From assembly GCA_016124845.1 (NCBI GenBank), contig WGMW01000009.1:1-64000 (forward strand): DNA of 64,000 bases, given 5' to 3'. Shown piece by piece: positions 327 through 42,597 of the stretch (position 1 is the first letter of the stretch; every line of letters begins with the position of its first letter). Source of the stretch: Flavobacteriales bacterium. GTDB taxonomy: Bacteria > Bacteroidota > Bacteroidia > UBA10329. A program made the position numbers and the translations under genes. A model generated the notes under the pieces. That model was not told the DNA's origin and made no database searches. It was given only the letters and a program-made list of their open reading frames with translations.

Positions 327-2840
327 TTAGCTTTTCTCAGAAGGGTCAAGCACTCTCCTTATATCAGCAATTAGAATCGGTGAAAAATCAAACACGGATA
401 AATCAGTTCCAGCTAACCAATCAAGACACTGCTGCTTATCCATTTTTGTATCAGTGAGAAACTCAGTAATTGCGATTACAGTGTTTCTACTTAGACCTAA
501 GGACAAAAATGATAGTTGGGTAGTTTGGGAGACCCCAAACTCAAGCCACAAATTGAGGTCAGGAATATCGTCCAGCAATTCAGGTCGATTAATTTCTGAA
601 ATGTAATGCCGTAAAATATCCACATAGCAACTATATTCTTTTGCAAACCTAAACCGGGCAAAATTCTCTACTTGCTCCATAGTGTCTCTACAAACCTTGT
701 CAATTTTCACTTTAGGATCACTCTTTTTATAGCTTCTATATGAGGAGCTAATCAAATAGGAAAGAGGTTTACCACTCATCCAATTGACCAACAATATTGC
801 ACGAGAGTAATTTAGCTTCGGTTGGAAATCTGCAAGTGTTTTGCCTATTCTACCAATCAACTTTGTATACTCATCAACAGCAGCAGCATCTTCAGGATAA
901 ACAGGGATAAGCGATTCTAATTCATTCTGTTTTGATTCAAAATATTCTAAAAGTTGCTGTTGAGCAATTGGCGAAATTCCAGGATTGCGGAAAATGATCT
1001 CACTAGGCACGGCAATCCTGTCTTTCAGAGATTCAAAGATTCCCAAAAGCTTTTTGATAAAATCAGTCTTAGGAACGAGTTTATCCTGTAAGAATCGTGA
1101 GTAATAGTATGAAAAAGCAAACTCCAAGTCCTGACGGTTTTCTGCTACGCTCCTTGGAGTATCTTCAAGAATGAAATCAATGAGCTCCTCTTCCTTTATC
1201 AAATCAAGAGCTTTTTCTATTCGTTGTTTACGCTTAAAAGGAGATGGCTTTATTTCCCATCTATCTGGCTCTATGCAAACAATATTTCCACTGAACTCCT
1301 TACCCCACCTACCAGCACGTCCGGCTAAATTCCAAAAGTCATTTTCATTGAGTGGCTTACCCCTACCCCTTGTTGGTTTTTTAATAAACACAGAGGTCGC
1401 TGGTAGATTTACCCCCTCGAGCAAAGTGGATGTACAAACCAAATACTTGATTTGATTCAATTTGAATAATCGTTCTATTTCCTGCCTAATCAGAAGCGGC
1501 ATATTTCCGTAATGGAAAGCAACTCCTTTACCAAGAACCTTGGCCAACGAATAATCTCTGTGAATTGACGATTTGACCAGTTTAATCAATTCGTTAATCT
1601 CAGAATTCTGAGATTCGTCAGGGCTCAACCCCATCAGTATTTTCGCATTACTTTCGGCTTCAGCAGCACCGTTAGCATAAATCAACCCACCTCCTACATT
1701 TCCAGAAATGGCTTTTGCCAAAAGCGAAATCTTCTTTGCTTCTGACACAGGTCTATCTTCCAGATTAATCGTTCCAATCTGAACACTCCCTGCTTTGGAG
1801 ACCAAACTCACGTTCCATAACATCGGCTTTCTTTTGACTGGAGTTAGATACAGAAGATTCTGATTAACAGCGACAAACTCGGTGTTTACAACTGCGCTTG
1901 AACCTGAATCTCCGATCCAGTTTAATAATGCTTCAGGATTGGATGTAAAAGGACTTGAAAAGAAAATCCTAACCCGTGGGTTAAGTTCTTTAACCTCCTC
2001 AAGCTTTCGTTGCAGTAAAATCCCTCGATTTCCGTTGTCAATTTTATGAGCCTCATCAACAACCAAATAATCAATTGATGAAGTTCCAGGCTGTGTTAAA
2101 AACCAATGAAGCCTCTCTTGGGTGAATACGTACAGATTAATCTGAGAATTTGCCGTCTCGTTTAACGGGACCGTTGTTAGATTAACATTTACCAATTCTC
2201 TTGAAGTAATGAGTTTTCTCAAATCCTCCTCAACCTGACTGATTAGTGCTCGAGTTGGAACTATGTAAACAATATTGCAGCGACCTGAAACCAACCACTC
2301 GCTTAAAAGCTGAGACAGTATAAATGACTTTCCAGCAGAGGTAGGAGCTGAAATACTTACAGCTGCATGCGTTAATGAAGCATCGTAAGCCTCCTTTTGA
2401 AACCTGTTGAGGGAAACAACCTCGTTATCAATTATAGCAGAATTTTCAATCCTAGTTCGATTTGTTTGAAGTCGAAATGGTAATGGAAGCTGCTGGGCTA
2501 AGTCAGGTTCAATTAGCTGCCTCTTCTTAGCTAATTCTAATGCTGGTTGATTAGTCAGACTCTCAAGGACCACTATTGCACCCGCCTTTTGTTCTGGGCT
2601 GGTACTAGCCCTCAAGCATGACTGTGAGATTCGCAGAGCAGCCTCTAAATGTTCACTTTTTGAAGATAAACTCAGAATACTTGCGATGCCCAACAAATTA
2701 TCCCAATTAATTTTCCCCAACAGGGCTTCCTGACTCTCGCACCAATTTAAATTGGACAAGGTATTACCTACAGAAAATGCTTGAATTGCACCATACTGTC
2801 TAGTGAAACTTGGGAGTTCAAATAACTTCTCTGCTATCAT
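327..2840 (-). CDS. hamB: Hachiman anti-phage helicase HamB
   Basis: This 837-residue superfamily 2 DNA helicase is the motor subunit of the Hachiman defence complex. Visible motifs are Walker A APTSAGKS (about 165-172), DEAH (262-265), motif III as FSSPF instead of the common SAT (294-298), motif V TLLEGVNLP (about 472-480) and motif VI LAGRAGRWG (about 505-513). Residues 1-140 are an N-terminal region without motifs I recognise, and the last 300 residues are largely helical. The start overlaps the stop of the upstream DUF1837 gene by four bases (ATGA), so the two are translationally coupled. In characterised Hachiman systems HamB senses damaged or altered DNA and releases the HamA nuclease. 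That role is carried over from the family. The assignment rests mainly on the pairing, since the helicase alone would be ambiguous. Confidence 0.85.
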   Translation of the reverse strand: MIAEKLFELPSFTRQYGAIQAFSVGNTLSNLNWCESQEALLGKINWDNLLGIASILSLSSKSEHLEAALRISQSCLRASTSPEQKAGAIVVLESLTNQPALELAKKRQLIEPDLAQQLPLPFRLQTNRTRIENSAIIDNEVVSLNRFQKEAYDASLTHAAVSISAPTSAGKSFILSQLLSEWLVSGRCNIVYIVPTRALISQVEEDLRKLITSRELVNVNLTTVPLNETANSQINLYVFTQERLHWFLTQPGTSSIDYLVVDEAHKIDNGNRGILLQRKLEEVKELNPRVRIFFSSPFTSNPEALLNWIGDSGSSAVVNTEFVAVNQNLLYLTPVKRKPMLWNVSLVSKAGSVQIGTINLEDRPVSEAKKISLLAKAISGNVGGGLIYANGAAEAESNAKILMGLSPDESQNSEINELIKLVKSSIHRDYSLAKVLGKGVAFHYGNMPLLIRQEIERLFKLNQIKYLVCTSTLLEGVNLPATSVFIKKPTRGRGKPLNENDFWNLAGRAGRWGKEFSGNIVCIEPDRWEIKPSPFKRKQRIEKALDLIKEEELIDFILEDTPRSVAENRQDLEFAFSYYYSRFLQDKLVPKTDFIKKLLGIFESLKDRIAVPSEIIFRNPGISPIAQQQLLEYFESKQNELESLIPVYPEDAAAVDEYTKLIGRIGKTLADFQPKLNYSRAILLVNWMSGKPLSYLISSSYRSYKKSDPKVKIDKVCRDTMEQVENFARFRFAKEYSCYVDILRHYISEINRPELLDDIPDLNLWLEFGVSQTTQLSFLSLGLSRNTVIAITEFLTDTKMDKQQCLDWLAGTDLSVFDFSPILIADIRRVLDPSEKS

Positions 2841-3787
2841 CGCGACACGATTTTCAAAAACTGATTTCTTAGGTCTTCAACTGAGGGAAAGGGGATTAGG
2901 AAGACGTGTATTTCAAACTTTTCGAGATTGACATGATTTTTAATTTTCGACCCGCTGGTTTTCAACCACGATTCAATTTCAGCTTCAAATAGTTTCTTTA
3001 TATCAGCAAGAGTCTTTTCATGAGGATTACTCGGATAGTGTTTACTGTCAAAACCAACGAAACAAACACCCTTATACTTTAACTTATTCGAAGCATCATC
3101 ATCCAAATCGAAATACTTTACAATGGCATCTTCCAATTTAGGGTTGTTAGTATTGTCGAATATGTTTTGAGTAATCAACATTAAATCTCTTTCCTGCACC
3201 GAACCTGAGCCATAGGTATCCAACAGAAATCCTTTTAGACTATTAAAACAATTGGTTAAACCAGAATTTAGGGTTTTCTCCATCTTGGACTCTCCCCAAT
3301 AAAGAGATAAGGTGTCATCTTTTGAATCAAAATGAACATGTATACCATCTGCTCCTTGGTAATGCAGTTTTCCCGAAGTCTTTAAGCTCATTTTACTAAT
3401 CAGTTGAGGAAATCCGAGGACTTCTTGAACCAGAACATATAGAAGCATTTCTCCCAGTTCACCTGTTTGCTTCAAATCAGTAAACAACATCTTTGCCTTA
3501 GCCTGTAATTCCAGAATCTTATCGGTAGAATTAGTTCGAATGAAACTTTCTTTCGCCTCATCAATCGACTTCTTTGGTATTGAATAGTCAACAATTTTGG
3601 TTGCTATAAAATCTACAAGGTCTTTAGTTCTTGGATTTCCTTGCCCATCCAATTTGACACAATAGCAGTGTGCGATAGCCTCGGTTTCCGGTATCTCAAG
3701 ATCTTTCTCAAGACACGCGATCCTGGAATTGATTTTCCCTTCCTGAGAAATAACCAACTCATTGATTGCATCTTCAATCCAACTCAT
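2837..3787 (-). CDS. hamA: Hachiman nuclease HamA (DUF1837)
   Basis: This is the effector nuclease of the Hachiman system. Counting from the ATG at 3787 it has 316 residues. An upstream in-frame ATG at 3910 would add 41 residues (total 357), but that stretch looks non-coding and HamA proteins are usually near 300 residues, so 3787 is preferred. The DUF1837 core shows a GELGEML helix (E113), then SKMSLKTSG, then GADGIH (D147) and YWGESK (E166, K168). Together these fit a PD-(D/E)xK nuclease site. The gene precedes hamB with a four-base overlap. In studied systems HamA is held inactive by HamB until DNA damage or phage DNA is sensed, and then degrades DNA. The operon is visibly AT-richer than the metabolic genes downstream, consistent with acquisition by transfer. 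Confidence 0.85.
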   Translation of the reverse strand: MSWIEDAINELVISQEGKINSRIACLEKDLEIPETEAIAHCYCVKLDGQGNPRTKDLVDFIATKIVDYSIPKKSIDEAKESFIRTNSTDKILELQAKAKMLFTDLKQTGELGEMLLYVLVQEVLGFPQLISKMSLKTSGKLHYQGADGIHVHFDSKDDTLSLYWGESKMEKTLNSGLTNCFNSLKGFLLDTYGSGSVQERDLMLITQNIFDNTNNPKLEDAIVKYFDLDDDASNKLKYKGVCFVGFDSKHYPSNPHEKTLADIKKLFEAEIESWLKTSGSKIKNHVNLEKFEIHVFLIPFPSVEDLRNQFLKIVSR

Positions 3788-4277
3788 GGCTTTAAAAGTT
3801 TTGGTTTCTGTCCTATCTCGGCTAATGCCTGAAATATCGGGTTGGACAAAACCAAAGAAACGAAACGTTTTCCTTGAAATGGATTCGGACAACAAAATGA
3901 ATGGATACATAATTTGTATTTAAATCACTTAGGGTTTATTCCAAACCACACACTCCAGTACGTAACCTATTTATGTCCAATCTTCTGACGCATGTTTCCA
4001 AACGCGTGCCTTCCAGTTCATCTGCCCTAAACACTTCCCGTTTCCATCCACCCGCACCGGCATAGGAATTCGCAATCGGGGTACCCACACTGCGCAGAGG
4101 CCGTCAGAACGGGGCGCAGAAGTGAACCCTGAGCTTGTCGAAGGGGAACGGCTTGGCCCGTTCAGGCCGCAGAGCAGTGAAGGGTCGAATGAGGATTCCA
4201 AGCCTTGACTTTTTGGTTCCTTTTGGGTCAAGCCAAAAGAACAAAGAAGCACCCCGTTGTAGGGCGTTTACAACTCT
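3788..4277. repeat. Intergenic dispersed-repeat DNA upstream of hamA
   Basis: There is no convincing gene in this 490-bp gap. Around 4118-4146 lies a segment reading AACCCTGAGCTTGTCGAAGG, a very common Bacteroidota intergenic repeat type. Around 4206-4243 an imperfect inverted repeat pairs TTTTTGGTTCCTTTTGGG with CAAGCCAAAAG, another dispersed-repeat style. A 93-codon minus-strand frame (3971-4252) spans these repeats and shows no domain. The promoter of hamAB must lie here or just inside 3788-3910, but I could not fix it. Confidence 0.5.
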
Positions 4278-4549
4278 CCAAAAGTGGTTTTCCTCCCCCA
4301 ACAAGTGGTTTGCAATTACCAACGAGAGGTTTTCAATCCCCAAGTACGCGTTTGCAATCACGTCCAGCGCGTTTGCAATAGCCAACAGCAATCGTTCAAT
4401 CACTAACGGCAATCGTTCAATCGCCAACCAGTTGTTTTCATTCGCCAACATGTGTCGTTGAATCACCAACCAGTGACTTTCAACAACCAATGGGTGACGT
4501 TCAACCGCCAACAAATGGCTTACCTTCCCCAAAAAGTAGTTGCTACCCC
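4278..4549. repeat. Degenerate 21-bp tandem array 1 (about 13 units)
   Basis: Consecutive units begin with CCAAC or a variant at 4278, 4298, 4319, 4340, 4361, 4382, 4403, 4424, 4445, 4466, 4487, 4508 and 4529. After the first 20-bp unit, every unit is exactly 21 bp. The loose consensus is CCAAC, then about seven variable bases, then GTT(T/C)(G/T)CAATC. Neighbouring units differ at many positions, yet the phase is kept without indels. Because 21 is a multiple of three, open frames across it read as heptads in both directions. A related array lies at 41859-42068. It is not a CRISPR, since there is no conserved repeat with unique spacers. Its function is unknown. Confidence 0.85.
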
Positions 4550-4667: not shown

Positions 4668-5066
4668 ATGAAACTGATCCTGAGCTACGTTCTTACCACC
4701 CTTGTCTTCTTCGCCATCGACCTCACGTGGCTTGGCCTCGTGGCCAAAAAGTTCTACTGGCAACAACTGGGCGACCTCCTCAAAGAAAACGTCAACTGGA
4801 CCGCAGCCATCATTTTCTACCTCATTTACATCGTGGGCATTTTCATCTTTTCCATCCTCCCAGCGGTAGAAAATGATTCCGTAAAACACGCCCTCTTTTA
4901 CGGTGCGCTCTTCGGTTTCTTCGCCTACGCCACCTATGACCTCACCAACCTCGCAACGCTCAAAGGCTTCCCGCTTAAAGTGGTTTTCGTGGACATCCTT
5001 TGGGGAATCGTCCTCACGGGAGCCGTCAGCACAGCAGGTTTCTACATCACCCGCTGGGTACACTAA
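4668..5066 (+). CDS. DUF2177 family membrane protein
   Basis: This 132-residue inner-membrane protein has four hydrophobic segments (about 4-25, 45-64, 73-92, 105-126). It matches the DUF2177 family in length and in the patterns DLTWLGLVAKKFY near the N-terminus, ATYDLTNLATLKG in the middle and DILWG near the end. The function of the family is not established. The ATG at 4668 is chosen because translation upstream of it runs through the 21-bp repeat array. Its last ten codons (GFYITRWVH and stop) are copied downstream twice within the 192-bp tandem duplications, so the end of this gene served as the template for a local amplification. It appears to be monocistronic. Confidence 0.8.
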   Translation: MKLILSYVLTTLVFFAIDLTWLGLVAKKFYWQQLGDLLKENVNWTAAIIFYLIYIVGIFIFSILPAVENDSVKHALFYGALFGFFAYATYDLTNLATLKGFPLKVVFVDILWGIVLTGAVSTAGFYITRWVH

Positions 5067-5612
5067 CGCTGCTAAGTATTCAGGCATGTGCAAATCGCCT
5101 TCGGCAATATCTTCAGCCACAGAGGCACAGAACACACAGAAGGATCACAGATAAATTGTCCTTCTGCGAAAACCTCTGTGAAACGCTGTGTTTCTGTGGC
5201 CAAGAAAATTTCCTTTCGATAGTCCTCAGGTTTCTACATCACCCGTTGGGTACACTGACGCTGCTAAGCCGTTCAGGTACGTGCGAATCGCCTTCGGCAA
5301 TATCTTCAGCCGCAGAGGCACTGAACACACAGAAGGATCACAGATAAATTGTCCTTCTGCGAAAACCTCTGTGAAACGCTGTGTTTCTGTGGCTAAGAAA
5401 ATTTCTTTTCGATTGCCCTCAGGTTTCTACCTCACCCGTTGGGTGCAATGACGCTGCTAAGCCGTTCAGGTACGCGCGAATCGCCTTCGGCAATATCCTC
5501 AGCCACAGAGGCACAGAACACACAGAAGGATCACAGATAAATTGTCCTTCTGCGAAAACCTCTGTGAAACTCTGTGTTTCTGTGGCTAAGAAAATTTCTT
5601 TTCGATAGCTCT
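5036..5612. repeat. Three tandem 192-bp repeats with CACAGA palindromes
   Basis: Units start at 5036, 5228 and 5421, with spacing of 192 and 193 bp. Each begins with the last ten codons of the DUF2177 gene (AGGTTTCTACATCACCCG) and continues through a CGCCTTCGGCAATATC segment into a CACAGA...TCTGTG imperfect palindrome (5116-5200, 5309-5393, 5502-5586). Copies are nearly identical, so the duplication is recent compared with the 21-bp array next door. The copied coding ends have no upstream part and cannot make protein. The region fills the whole gap to the SDR gene. Confidence 0.9.
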
Positions 5613-19471: not shown

Positions 19472-19655
19472 CCCCCAAAGGGGGAAGCTGAAGCACGGGT
19501 GAATAGAGAAGGCGACAATCTGTGAACTCTGGGATTCAAAACATTCGCATATTCGTACTCATTTGTAATAAATGGGAAAGATGAAAGCATGAAATTCGAA
19601 ATGGAGAAATTCGAAAACTCTGTGCATCTCTGTTTCTCAAAAGTTCTCTGTGCAA
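19461..19655. repeat. CCCCC/GGGGG element and degenerate CTCTGTG repeat
   Basis: This gap holds CCCCCTGACCCCCAAAGGGGG, which overlaps the end of the glycosyltransferase gene and is a shorter relative of the element at 6564. Near 19617-19655 come several CTCTGTG/TCTCTG motifs resembling a decayed right arm of the CACAGA family. No gene is seen in the remainder. Confidence 0.5.
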
Positions 19656-19661
19656 TAAACA

Positions 19662-20780
19662 ATGAATAAAGGAACGTCACTCGGGCAATTGGCTTGGCGC
19701 AGATTCAAGAAGGATGCTGCGGCCATTTTCGGTTCGGTGGTGATTCTTGTGGCCGTGATGCTTGCAACGCTTGGCCCGCTGATCACACCAGATGGAAGCC
19801 CGCACGCCAACCGACAGATCATTGAGTTGGCCGCCAAAAAGCCTGGTTCAACTTTCACTTTTTTGAAAGTTCCGAGAACCGTTGTTTCCGAAGATGGATT
19901 CAGCGAAAAACTGCTGGTAGGCAAACAGGAAAACTATTCTTGGGTCCCCATTTTCAGTCATTCTTTTTCTGCGGATACGCTGGTCATTGAACGCTACACA
20001 GGCGATACATCGAATGATGGTGAAATGGTGAAGTATTCCTTCGCATCGCTTTCATCAGAAGGAAAATCACCTGAAGAAGTGGAGAAAGAACTCATCGAAA
20101 CCAAAACATTCTGGCTGGGCACCGACCGGTTTGGTCGCGACCTGCTTAGCCGCATGATCCTCGGAACACGCATCTCGCTCAGCATCGGATTTGTGGCCGT
20201 GGCCATCTCCTTGCTCATCGGAATTCTGATGGGTTCATTGGCAGGATTTTTCCGTGGCTGGATTGATAATGTGGTAATGTGGTTCGTAACGGTGGTCTGG
20301 AGTATTCCGCTATTGCTTCTGGTCATCGCTATCACGCTGGCAATGGGAAAAGGATTCTGGCAGGTCTTCGTGGCGGTTGGAATGGCCATGTGGGTAGAGG
20401 TGGCGCGTATCGTCCGTGGACAGATACTCAGCATCCGCGAGAAGGAATTTGTGGAAGCCTGCCGTGCGCTCGGTTTCTCTGGTTTCAGAACAATTGTGCG
20501 GCATATTCTGCCGAATATTCTCGGACCTGTCATTGTCATTTCGGCTGCGAATTTTGCTTCGGCCATTCTGATCGAGGCAGGTCTGAGCTTCCTCGGCATC
20601 GGTGCGCAGCCACCTATTCCGAGTTGGGGAGCCATGATCAAAGACCATTACGGCTACATCATTATGGACAAGGCGTATCTGGCGCTCATTCCCGGAACGG
20701 CCATTCTATTGATGGTACTTGCGTTTACCTTAGTGGGAAATGGCGTGCGCGATGCGTTGGATGTGAAAAGCACCCGATAG
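19662..20780 (+). CDS. ABC transporter permease, OppC/DppC type
   Basis: This 372-residue inner-membrane permease belongs to the oligopeptide/dipeptide importer type. The N-terminal OppC motif region LAWRRFKKDAAAIFG precedes membrane helix 1 (about 22-44). A periplasmic insert of about 110 residues follows. The core begins at GTDRFGRDLLSRMILGTR (about 150-167), and the coupling-helix EAA loop is ACRALGFSGFRTIVRHILPN (about 267-286). GLSFLGIGAQPPIPSWG is the usual C-terminal signature. The other subunits (binding protein, OppB, ATPases) are not in the window, so it is an orphan here. The periplasmic insert is longer than in E. coli OppC. Confidence 0.9.
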   Translation: MNKGTSLGQLAWRRFKKDAAAIFGSVVILVAVMLATLGPLITPDGSPHANRQIIELAAKKPGSTFTFLKVPRTVVSEDGFSEKLLVGKQENYSWVPIFSHSFSADTLVIERYTGDTSNDGEMVKYSFASLSSEGKSPEEVEKELIETKTFWLGTDRFGRDLLSRMILGTRISLSIGFVAVAISLLIGILMGSLAGFFRGWIDNVVMWFVTVVWSIPLLLLVIAITLAMGKGFWQVFVAVGMAMWVEVARIVRGQILSIREKEFVEACRALGFSGFRTIVRHILPNILGPVIVISAANFASAILIEAGLSFLGIGAQPPIPSWGAMIKDHYGYIIMDKAYLALIPGTAILLMVLAFTLVGNGVRDALDVKSTR

Positions 20781-40734: not shown

Positions 40735-41619
40735 TCAGTCGTTAGACCCAAAGATCTTCTTCTTCAATGTGGCGAAAGCACCTACTACGGCCACGGCAAT
40801 GATCTTCCAGAACTTGAGCAGAAGTGCGAAGAAACCGGCCTTGGCCAGCACCTTCCCGGCTATCAGACCACCAATGCCGTAGGCAGCCACCTCATCCATA
40901 TCGGGGTTGAAGTTGCTGTATCTGTGCCCTTCGTTAAAGCTCACGCTGCCCAGAATGTCGTCAATGTCGTTCTGCACCATCGGCAGAATGCTGATGTCAC
41001 CTATAGCGTTCATATTGAGGTAACCATAGCGGCCAAGGATGCGGATGTTGTAATTGAGCGTGTTGGTCTCCTCATCCTCAAACTTCAGTTCCTTGGCCCA
41101 ATGCAGTTTCTTGTTCTCCTTGTCGTAGAACGGAGGTGAGGCCCATCCCACCAGTTCAATGGTCGGGTATCCGGCCTCAACGCGTTGCGGGTTGATCTCC
41201 TTCATGTCGCTCTGCATCTCTTCCAGCAGGTCGTCATAGTCGATGTCCTCTGCATCATCGTCATCAATGTAACCGTCCTTGGAATAAGACACCTCCACCG
41301 CATAGGTGAAATTCTCGCTCATGGGCGATACTTCTTCTGGAAAGAGGAGTCCGAGGCATTCCGATGGCGGGTTGCCCCAGAGGTCGGTAAGCACGTGTTG
41401 GCTCTGCGCTGCATCCAAAAACTTGTAGCCCTCGGGCACGGTGATGGTGGCCGTACCATCGAGCAGATCAACGGTGCCGTAATTGTAGGTGAAACTGCCG
41501 TTGATGCTGTCAAGAACGGATTGTACGTCCACCACTTCTTCGAGCAAGGTGGTGTCTTCCTGTGCAAAAGAGACGGAGGCGGTTGCCAGTAGAGCAACCA
41601 AGCAAGTAAGCTTTTTCAT
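40735..41619 (-). CDS. DUF2167 family membrane-anchored protein
   Basis: This 294-residue protein has a signal peptide (MKKLTCLVALLATASVSFA) and a DUF2167 domain. Landmarks are TITVPEGYKFLDAAQSQHVL (about 55-74), a WGNPP segment, ELVGWASPPFYDKENKKLHWAKEL (split by short loops, about 152-175) and NIRILGRYGYLNMNAI. A glycine-rich hydrophobic segment near the C-terminus (about 240-283) anchors it in the membrane, and it ends with basic residues. The ATG at 41619 is used since the 32 residues upstream are not signal-like. The family function is not known. It is coupled to the SecD-like lipoprotein gene downstream. Confidence 0.85.
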   Translation of the reverse strand: MKKLTCLVALLATASVSFAQEDTTLLEEVVDVQSVLDSINGSFTYNYGTVDLLDGTATITVPEGYKFLDAAQSQHVLTDLWGNPPSECLGLLFPEEVSPMSENFTYAVEVSYSKDGYIDDDDAEDIDYDDLLEEMQSDMKEINPQRVEAGYPTIELVGWASPPFYDKENKKLHWAKELKFEDEETNTLNYNIRILGRYGYLNMNAIGDISILPMVQNDIDDILGSVSFNEGHRYSNFNPDMDEVAAYGIGGLIAGKVLAKAGFFALLLKFWKIIAVAVVGAFATLKKKIFGSND

Positions 41620-41858: not shown

Positions 41859-42068
41859 AATCTTGTCAGTGAATAGCGCGGGCTTGTGCGGGACTTTCGT
41901 GGGCTTGTCCAGGAATTGAACCGTCTTGTCCGTGAATCGAACCGTCTTGTCCGTGAATCGAACGGGCTTGTCCATGAGTCCCTTCTTTGTCTCCTCCGTT
42001 GGCTTCTGTCTCATGTCGGTACACTTCTTTGTAGTAGTGGAACACTTCTATGTAGACTTAGAAGTAAA
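41859..42068. repeat. Degenerate 21-bp tandem array 2 (ten units)
   Basis: Units start at 41859, 41880, 41901, 41922, 41943, 41964, 41985, 42006, 42027 and 42048, exactly 21 bp apart. The units at 41922 and 41943 are identical (CGTCTTGTCCGTGAATCGAA plus C), and flanking ones diverge. Units from 41985 on drift to a CT-TGT ... ACACTT type but keep the phase. On the plus strand the best units read as the heptad RLVRESN. Array 1 (4278-4549) has the same period and, on its minus strand, similar LV-x-E heptads (such as WLVIQRH and PLVIERL), so the two look like relatives. Confidence 0.85.
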
Positions 42069-42315: not shown

Positions 42316-42597
42316 ATGGAAAAAGAACTGCAACCATCGTTGAATTTGACAACCTACATGGTGGACGGAAAAAAGCTTACCGAGTGTCAGATGCGGATCA
42401 TTGGCCTATCGGTAAAGGGGCTGATGCGCAAGGAAATGGCCGAAGAGCTGGGCAAGAGCAGGCATACCATTGATACGCACCTCGACCGCATTTACAAATT
42501 ACTGGACCTGCACAGCGACAAGCAACTTACAGCCTGGGCATGCGCAATGGATTTGATGAGAACGGCCGCTTTCTTGGGAATGAAATACTGGTTTTAA
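42316..42597 (+). CDS. Short LuxR-type helix-turn-helix protein
   Basis: This 93-residue protein consists almost wholly of a LuxR C-terminal DNA-binding domain: LTECQMRIIGLSVKGLMRKE (about 22-41), the recognition part GKSRHTIDTHLDRIYKLLDLH (split at about 47-67) and a C-terminal helix. There is no receiver or sensor domain. It is probably a small DNA-binding regulator whose activity is set by expression or a partner. It lies downstream of the second 21-bp array. Targets are unknown. Confidence 0.8.
   Translation: MEKELQPSLNLTTYMVDGKKLTECQMRIIGLSVKGLMRKEMAEELGKSRHTIDTHLDRIYKLLDLHSDKQLTAWACAMDLMRTAAFLGMKYWF

Follow-up and report, generated by a model that had tools for sequence, protein, structure and literature searches.

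Relation to described repeats

The known repeats closest to the arrays described here are BrickBuilt, heptamer direct repeats, Borg tandem repeats, and REP/BIMEs, and each of these differs from them in at least one main feature. BrickBuilt, a minisatellite/MITE of Porphyromonas gingivalis, is composed of 23-nt units of a single sequence with a fixed leader and tail and inverted-repeat ends (PMC4596501). Our arrays resemble it in being dispersed in Bacteroidetes as head-to-tail units of near length without spacers; unlike BrickBuilt, they have their own unit at most loci and a unit length of 21 or 42 bp, and a comparison of their flanks revealed neither a leader nor a tail in common, nor terminal inverted repeats shared among them. 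Heptamer direct repeats (TAACTGA and related sequences) occur in Beggiatoaceae, Cyanobacteria, and Bacteroidetes as 7-nt units of one sequence, often directly upstream of start codons (PMC4679880). They share with our arrays an abundance of intergenic direct repeats that change in size by fixed steps, as well as their presence in Bacteroidetes, whereas the units reported here are 21 nt long and of many sequences. Arrays of 14 bp (i.e., 7 based) were present in G004, a genome of the same genus, and in other genomes; none was seen in the sampled intergenic DNA of the genome studied here (G000).

Borg tandem repeats also occupy many scattered and partly intergenic loci, each with its own unit. 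However, Borg units are perfect, and the intergenic ones are of many lengths, only 14 to 38% of which are divisible by three (PMC9879509), whereas the units of our arrays are diverged and nearly constant in length. Our arrays resemble REP/BIMEs and RAYTs (PMC2817692, PMC3733652) in being extragenic and often near 3' ends, in that a subset of the arrays is palindromic, and in that some adjoin insertion sequences. Unlike REP/BIMEs, our arrays have no common REP sequence, many are nonpalindromic, and the head-to-tail spacing is strictly 21 bp. A search of the literature, which was incomplete, yielded no account of intergenic arrays with a strict 21-bp period in Bacteroidetes.

Structure of the two arrays

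The window analyzed here is a 64,000-nucleotide stretch of the 4.36-Mb G000 genome. It contains two 21-bp arrays, each of which lies in a long intergenic gap, as the original prediction had stated, and between divergent genes. Genes were called with a simple hexamer caller. The features are as follows.

2837 to 3910, minus strand: HamA (Hachiman-type) gene (Pfam PF08878, E = 2e-59), with a likely start near 3786, on the opposite side of array 1 from the DUF2177 gene
4281 to 4532, no strand assigned: array 1, twelve 21-bp units with the core TTCAATCNCCAAC and roughly 8 bp of variable sequence
4668 to 5066, plus strand: DUF2177 membrane protein gene (Pfam PF09945, E = 6e-48), 136 bp from array 1
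40735 to 41619, minus strand: DUF2167 protein gene (Pfam PF09935, E = 3e-90), with its likely start codon 240 bp from array 2
41859 to 41984, no strand assigned: type A part of array 2, consisting of six 21-bp units with the consensus CTTGTCCGTGAATCGAACCGT (reverse complement, ACGGTTCGATTCACGGACAAG)
41985 to 42068, no strand assigned: type B part of array 2, consisting of four 21-bp units beginning CTTCTNTGT, unrelated to type A
42316 to 42597, plus strand: gene for a 93-amino-acid protein with a LuxR-type (GerE) helix-turn-helix (Pfam PF00196, E = 1e-8), starting 248 bp past array 2

In the best 84-bp window of array 2 (41859 to 42068), 66 of 84 positions matched at a lag of 21 bp; 1,000 Markov shuffles that preserved the dinucleotide transitions averaged 31.7 matches and never exceeded 42. 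TRF assigned a score of 106 to positions 41904 to 41977. The predicted period of exactly 21 bp held throughout the array, with no indels, and two units (at 41922 and 41943) were indeed identical. The unit types had also been thought to drift gradually into one another. We reject this, as the likeness between type A and type B units did not exceed that of permuted units (p = 0.82) and the register they share ranked only 6th among 21 rotations. Since this likeness is within chance, array 2 is better described as two adjoining 21-bp arrays. In C15, which is homologous to array 2, a second and differing unit type adjoins the type A units.

For array 1, the lag-21 count was 56 of 84, with a shuffle maximum of 40. 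Two further repeats lie near this array. Positions 4055 to 4242 form a dispersed repeat with 74% identity to L025:12519-12692, and each copy adjoins a 21-bp array. At positions 5035 to 5609, a 193-bp tandem repeat in three copies overlaps the DUF2177 gene at its 3' end and continues beyond it.

Dispersal and period of the arrays

A lag scan covered 1.28 Mb of sampled sequence (approximately 30% of the genome). This revealed 19 intergenic arrays with a period of 21 bp and 23 with a period of 42 bp, most of the latter being second harmonics of 21; a few had a period of 42 bp only. All other intergenic periods from 10 to 41 bp were represented by at most three arrays each, and none was seen at 10 to 11, 31 to 32, or 52 to 53 bp, which pure helical phasing would also allow. 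Coding DNA instead contained the usual mix of periods that are multiples of three. When stretches picked for their hits and the window itself were excluded, about 12 arrays remained in 1.10 Mb (including one borderline case and a pair in inverted orientation on a single contig), from which we estimate, by arithmetic, roughly 50 such arrays per genome. Inverted copies of one array (L111:821-1011 and 19535-19726) lie near the two ends of a 20.5-kb contig (C14).

Arrays 1 and 2 are dispersed, noncoding, intergenic minisatellites with a period that is almost exclusively 21 or 42 bp, built, like the others, from head-to-tail units within the range of 10 to 60 bp at many intergenic loci. Their dispersal had been predicted and proved to be wider than proposed. 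Relatives of the type A unit were found at C15:97635-97823 and C40:147-310, with unrelated flanks, and a relative of the array 1 unit was found at C10:55073-55303, where the flanks are likewise unrelated. C8 and C32 also have one unit in common, again with unrelated flanks. At most loci the unit sequence differs, and sharing is confined to groups of two or three arrays.

The 21-bp register was kept despite 2,039 differences in 6,111 comparisons of adjacent units (33%). There was no persistent phase shift in approximately 260 unit junctions, and where another lag scored higher at a junction the 21-bp register resumed beyond it. The period was kept in old arrays (units 50 to 60% identical) and in young ones (>95%). 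It is from these observations that we infer the strength of the length constraint on the arrays.

Arrays in other genomes

In 0.80 Mb of G004, there were 10 intergenic arrays with a period of 21 bp and 11 with a period of 42 bp, beside the 14-bp arrays. Some are near perfect (21 bp, L191:7556-7849; 42 bp, L196, L205, and L206). Arrays of 21 and 42 bp also were present in some further Bacteroidia genomes. Two rumen Bacteroidales genomes carry 41-bp arrays (L098:8021-8326 and L099:8141-8461) with the long palindrome AGCACTATGTCGGCCGACATAGTGCT.

C40 of G000 and C6 of G004 are homologous (73% identity over 348 bp, gene end included), and their arrays differ at approximately 27% of bases without an indel within the array. 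Recently duplicated arrays within each genome also align without gaps, with identities of 92.7% over 478 bp for a pair in G004 and 95% over 272 bp for a pair in G000. One flank of the G004 pair is nearly identical and most differences fall in the array, where they look like in-register exchanges of two unit variants.

Conservation between species was low. Among 13 arrays of G000 searched for in nine genomes, two matched another species, which in both cases was G004; such low conservation fits the turnover of inert DNA as well as it fits function. Type A units were not found elsewhere in 295 genomes of the class by a weak search, in which only two candidates were scored for each genome and even array 2 was missed. 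With regard to the locus of array 2 in relatives, the only gene of the locus found was that for thioredoxin, in four genomes of the genus. The available relatives are 77 to 80% identical in the one gene compared, which is too distant for strain-level evolution.

Coding capacity, symmetry, and RNA structure

Array 2 had been read as encoding the heptad RLVRESN, and arrays 1 and 2 were proposed to share an LV-x-E heptad as one family. Stop-free frames were counted against a null in which one and the same permutation of the 21 columns was applied to all units of an array, so that the divergence between units was kept. The counts fitted this null in 12 of 13 array segments (the exception was L025; p = 0.02), and arrays C2, C14, and C40b had no open frame. 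Column variability was even modulo 3, and third positions were not consistently the most variable. Against column-permuted units, arrays 1 and 2 showed no excess likeness in their DNA profiles (p = 0.13) or in codon-aligned heptad profiles (p = 0.48); for true relatives, this test gave p values of 0.002 with DNA and 0.007 with heptads. Neither the heptad reading nor a kinship of the two arrays, in any frame or phase, survived these comparisons. Of the two conditions originally set for refuting the prediction, the lack of excess codon-aligned likeness was observed and the lack of further copies was not.

Dyad-symmetric units were detected at p < 0.05 in 15 of 38 arrays, where about two would be expected; the combined P value of 7e-14 is too optimistic, because the 38 include a few arrays that are homologous to, or neighbors of, one another. 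Arrays 1 and 2 showed no dyad symmetry (p = 0.88 and 0.58, respectively). In the 42-bp arrays C6 and C11, two palindromes alternate approximately 21 bp apart (spacing read by eye). Conserved columns cluster in C10, array 1, C40a, and C41, and weakly over all arrays (P = 0.037). A general RNA structure was considered and rejected: folding z-scores did not stand out for array 2, were weak for array 1, and were strong mainly in palindromic arrays. No Rfam covariance model matched the 64-kb window at its gathering score.

Surroundings of the arrays

The arrays could not be linked to either the LuxR-type gene or the DUF2177 gene, and the flanking genes vary between arrays. Besides the HamA (Hachiman defense) gene at array 1, DndB-like and phosphorylase-family genes adjoin array C8. 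Arrays at L155:14411-15043, L137, and L199 lie upstream of paralogous genes for proteins of approximately 200 amino acids, one of which weakly matches fibronectin type III. Array starts often lie within approximately 100 bp of gene 3' ends, and 5' ends are more distant.

The array flanks are unrelated, the exceptions being arrays that were duplicated recently, the homologous pair C40/C6, insertion sequence ends, and a small number of local repeats, and a shared flanking element accordingly was rejected. The end of an IS256-type transposon adjoins a 21-bp array in four of seven copies, from two species. The element (mutator family, judged by eye from the L215 open reading frame) carries the palindrome CAACCCTGAAGGTTGGCCGCGGCCAACCTTCAGGGTTG at its end. 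The ends are located as follows.

IS256-type ends: L034:1-140; the end of L160; both ends of L191; L201:1-120; the end of L211; L215:1420-1580

The arrays could serve as landing sites for this element, or both could gather in tolerant DNA.

Interpretation

Twenty-one base pairs correspond to two helical turns of B-DNA, and 42 bp to four. On balance, we favor the view that the arrays belong to a genome-wide class of noncoding minisatellites with a fixed length of 21 bp (in a few cases, 42 bp) and a role at the level of DNA. Units may spread locally through in-register duplication or conversion, and segments of arrays may now and then move between loci. A length of two turns suggests that the units lie on one face of the helix, which is compatible with protein binding; the spacing may have been kept since the units act, or once acted, as DNA sites on that face. 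The symmetric subset may be sites for dimeric DNA-binding proteins. Given that arrays 1 and 2 lack dyad symmetry and that columns cluster weakly, a common binding protein is hypothetical. Any effects on neighboring genes would be exerted through DNA or RNA rather than peptide.

It is highly improbable that the arrays are genes for heptad-repeat peptides in which each unit specifies seven residues such as RLVRESN or LVIERLL. Although 21 is a multiple of 3 and array 1 shares with C10 an open minus-strand frame of VIENxxL-like heptads, the frame counts and codon positions described above argue against coding, and intergenic DNA shows no excess of periods that are other multiples of 3. Palindromic extragenic elements of the REP/BIME kind, spread by a transposase, would account for the symmetric units, for the alternating palindromes of C6 and C11, and for the many arrays that adjoin gene 3' ends or the IS256-type ends, and the genome contains Y1 transposase genes. 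However, only one Y1 reading frame (191 amino acids) exceeds the usual IS200 size, many arrays besides 1 and 2 are nonpalindromic, and units vary by locus, whereas REPs are one sequence per genome; we regard this explanation as quite unlikely.

Inert minisatellites are an appreciable, if minority, possibility. Here, slippage or recombination in intergenic DNA that tolerates insertions would generate the arrays, and their 21-bp length would be a quirk of amplification without selection for function. Consistent with this, the arrays are mostly species specific, have mixed flanking genes, and sit among other repeats and insertion sequence ends, many of them just past gene 3' ends, where insertions are tolerated. 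Slippage would nevertheless be expected to yield a broad spread of unit lengths, and what is observed, in two species and in old as well as young arrays, is nearly a single value; the intact phase of the unit junctions also is hard to square with neutral decay. The absence of half-integral multiples (31 to 32 and 52 to 53 bp) means that a mechanism copying exactly 21 bp is possible as well, and inert repeats produced by it would have the same appearance in these data. We think it unlikely that a cellular process with a two-turn ruler makes or maintains arrays of exactly 21 bp (or 42 bp) from arbitrary intergenic sequence in this lineage, such that length and not sequence is conserved.

Such 21-bp arrays should not be annotated as heptad-repeat peptides. 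As a rule, a bacterial minisatellite either has a single unit sequence that is dispersed or comes in many unit lengths. In the arrays described here, the unit sequence varies by locus and the length remains two helical turns, both in young arrays and in diverged ones and in at least two species. If this holds genome wide, it would suggest one of two things: a function at the level of DNA for which spacing matters and sequence does not, or an enzyme that measures off 21 bp when it amplifies.
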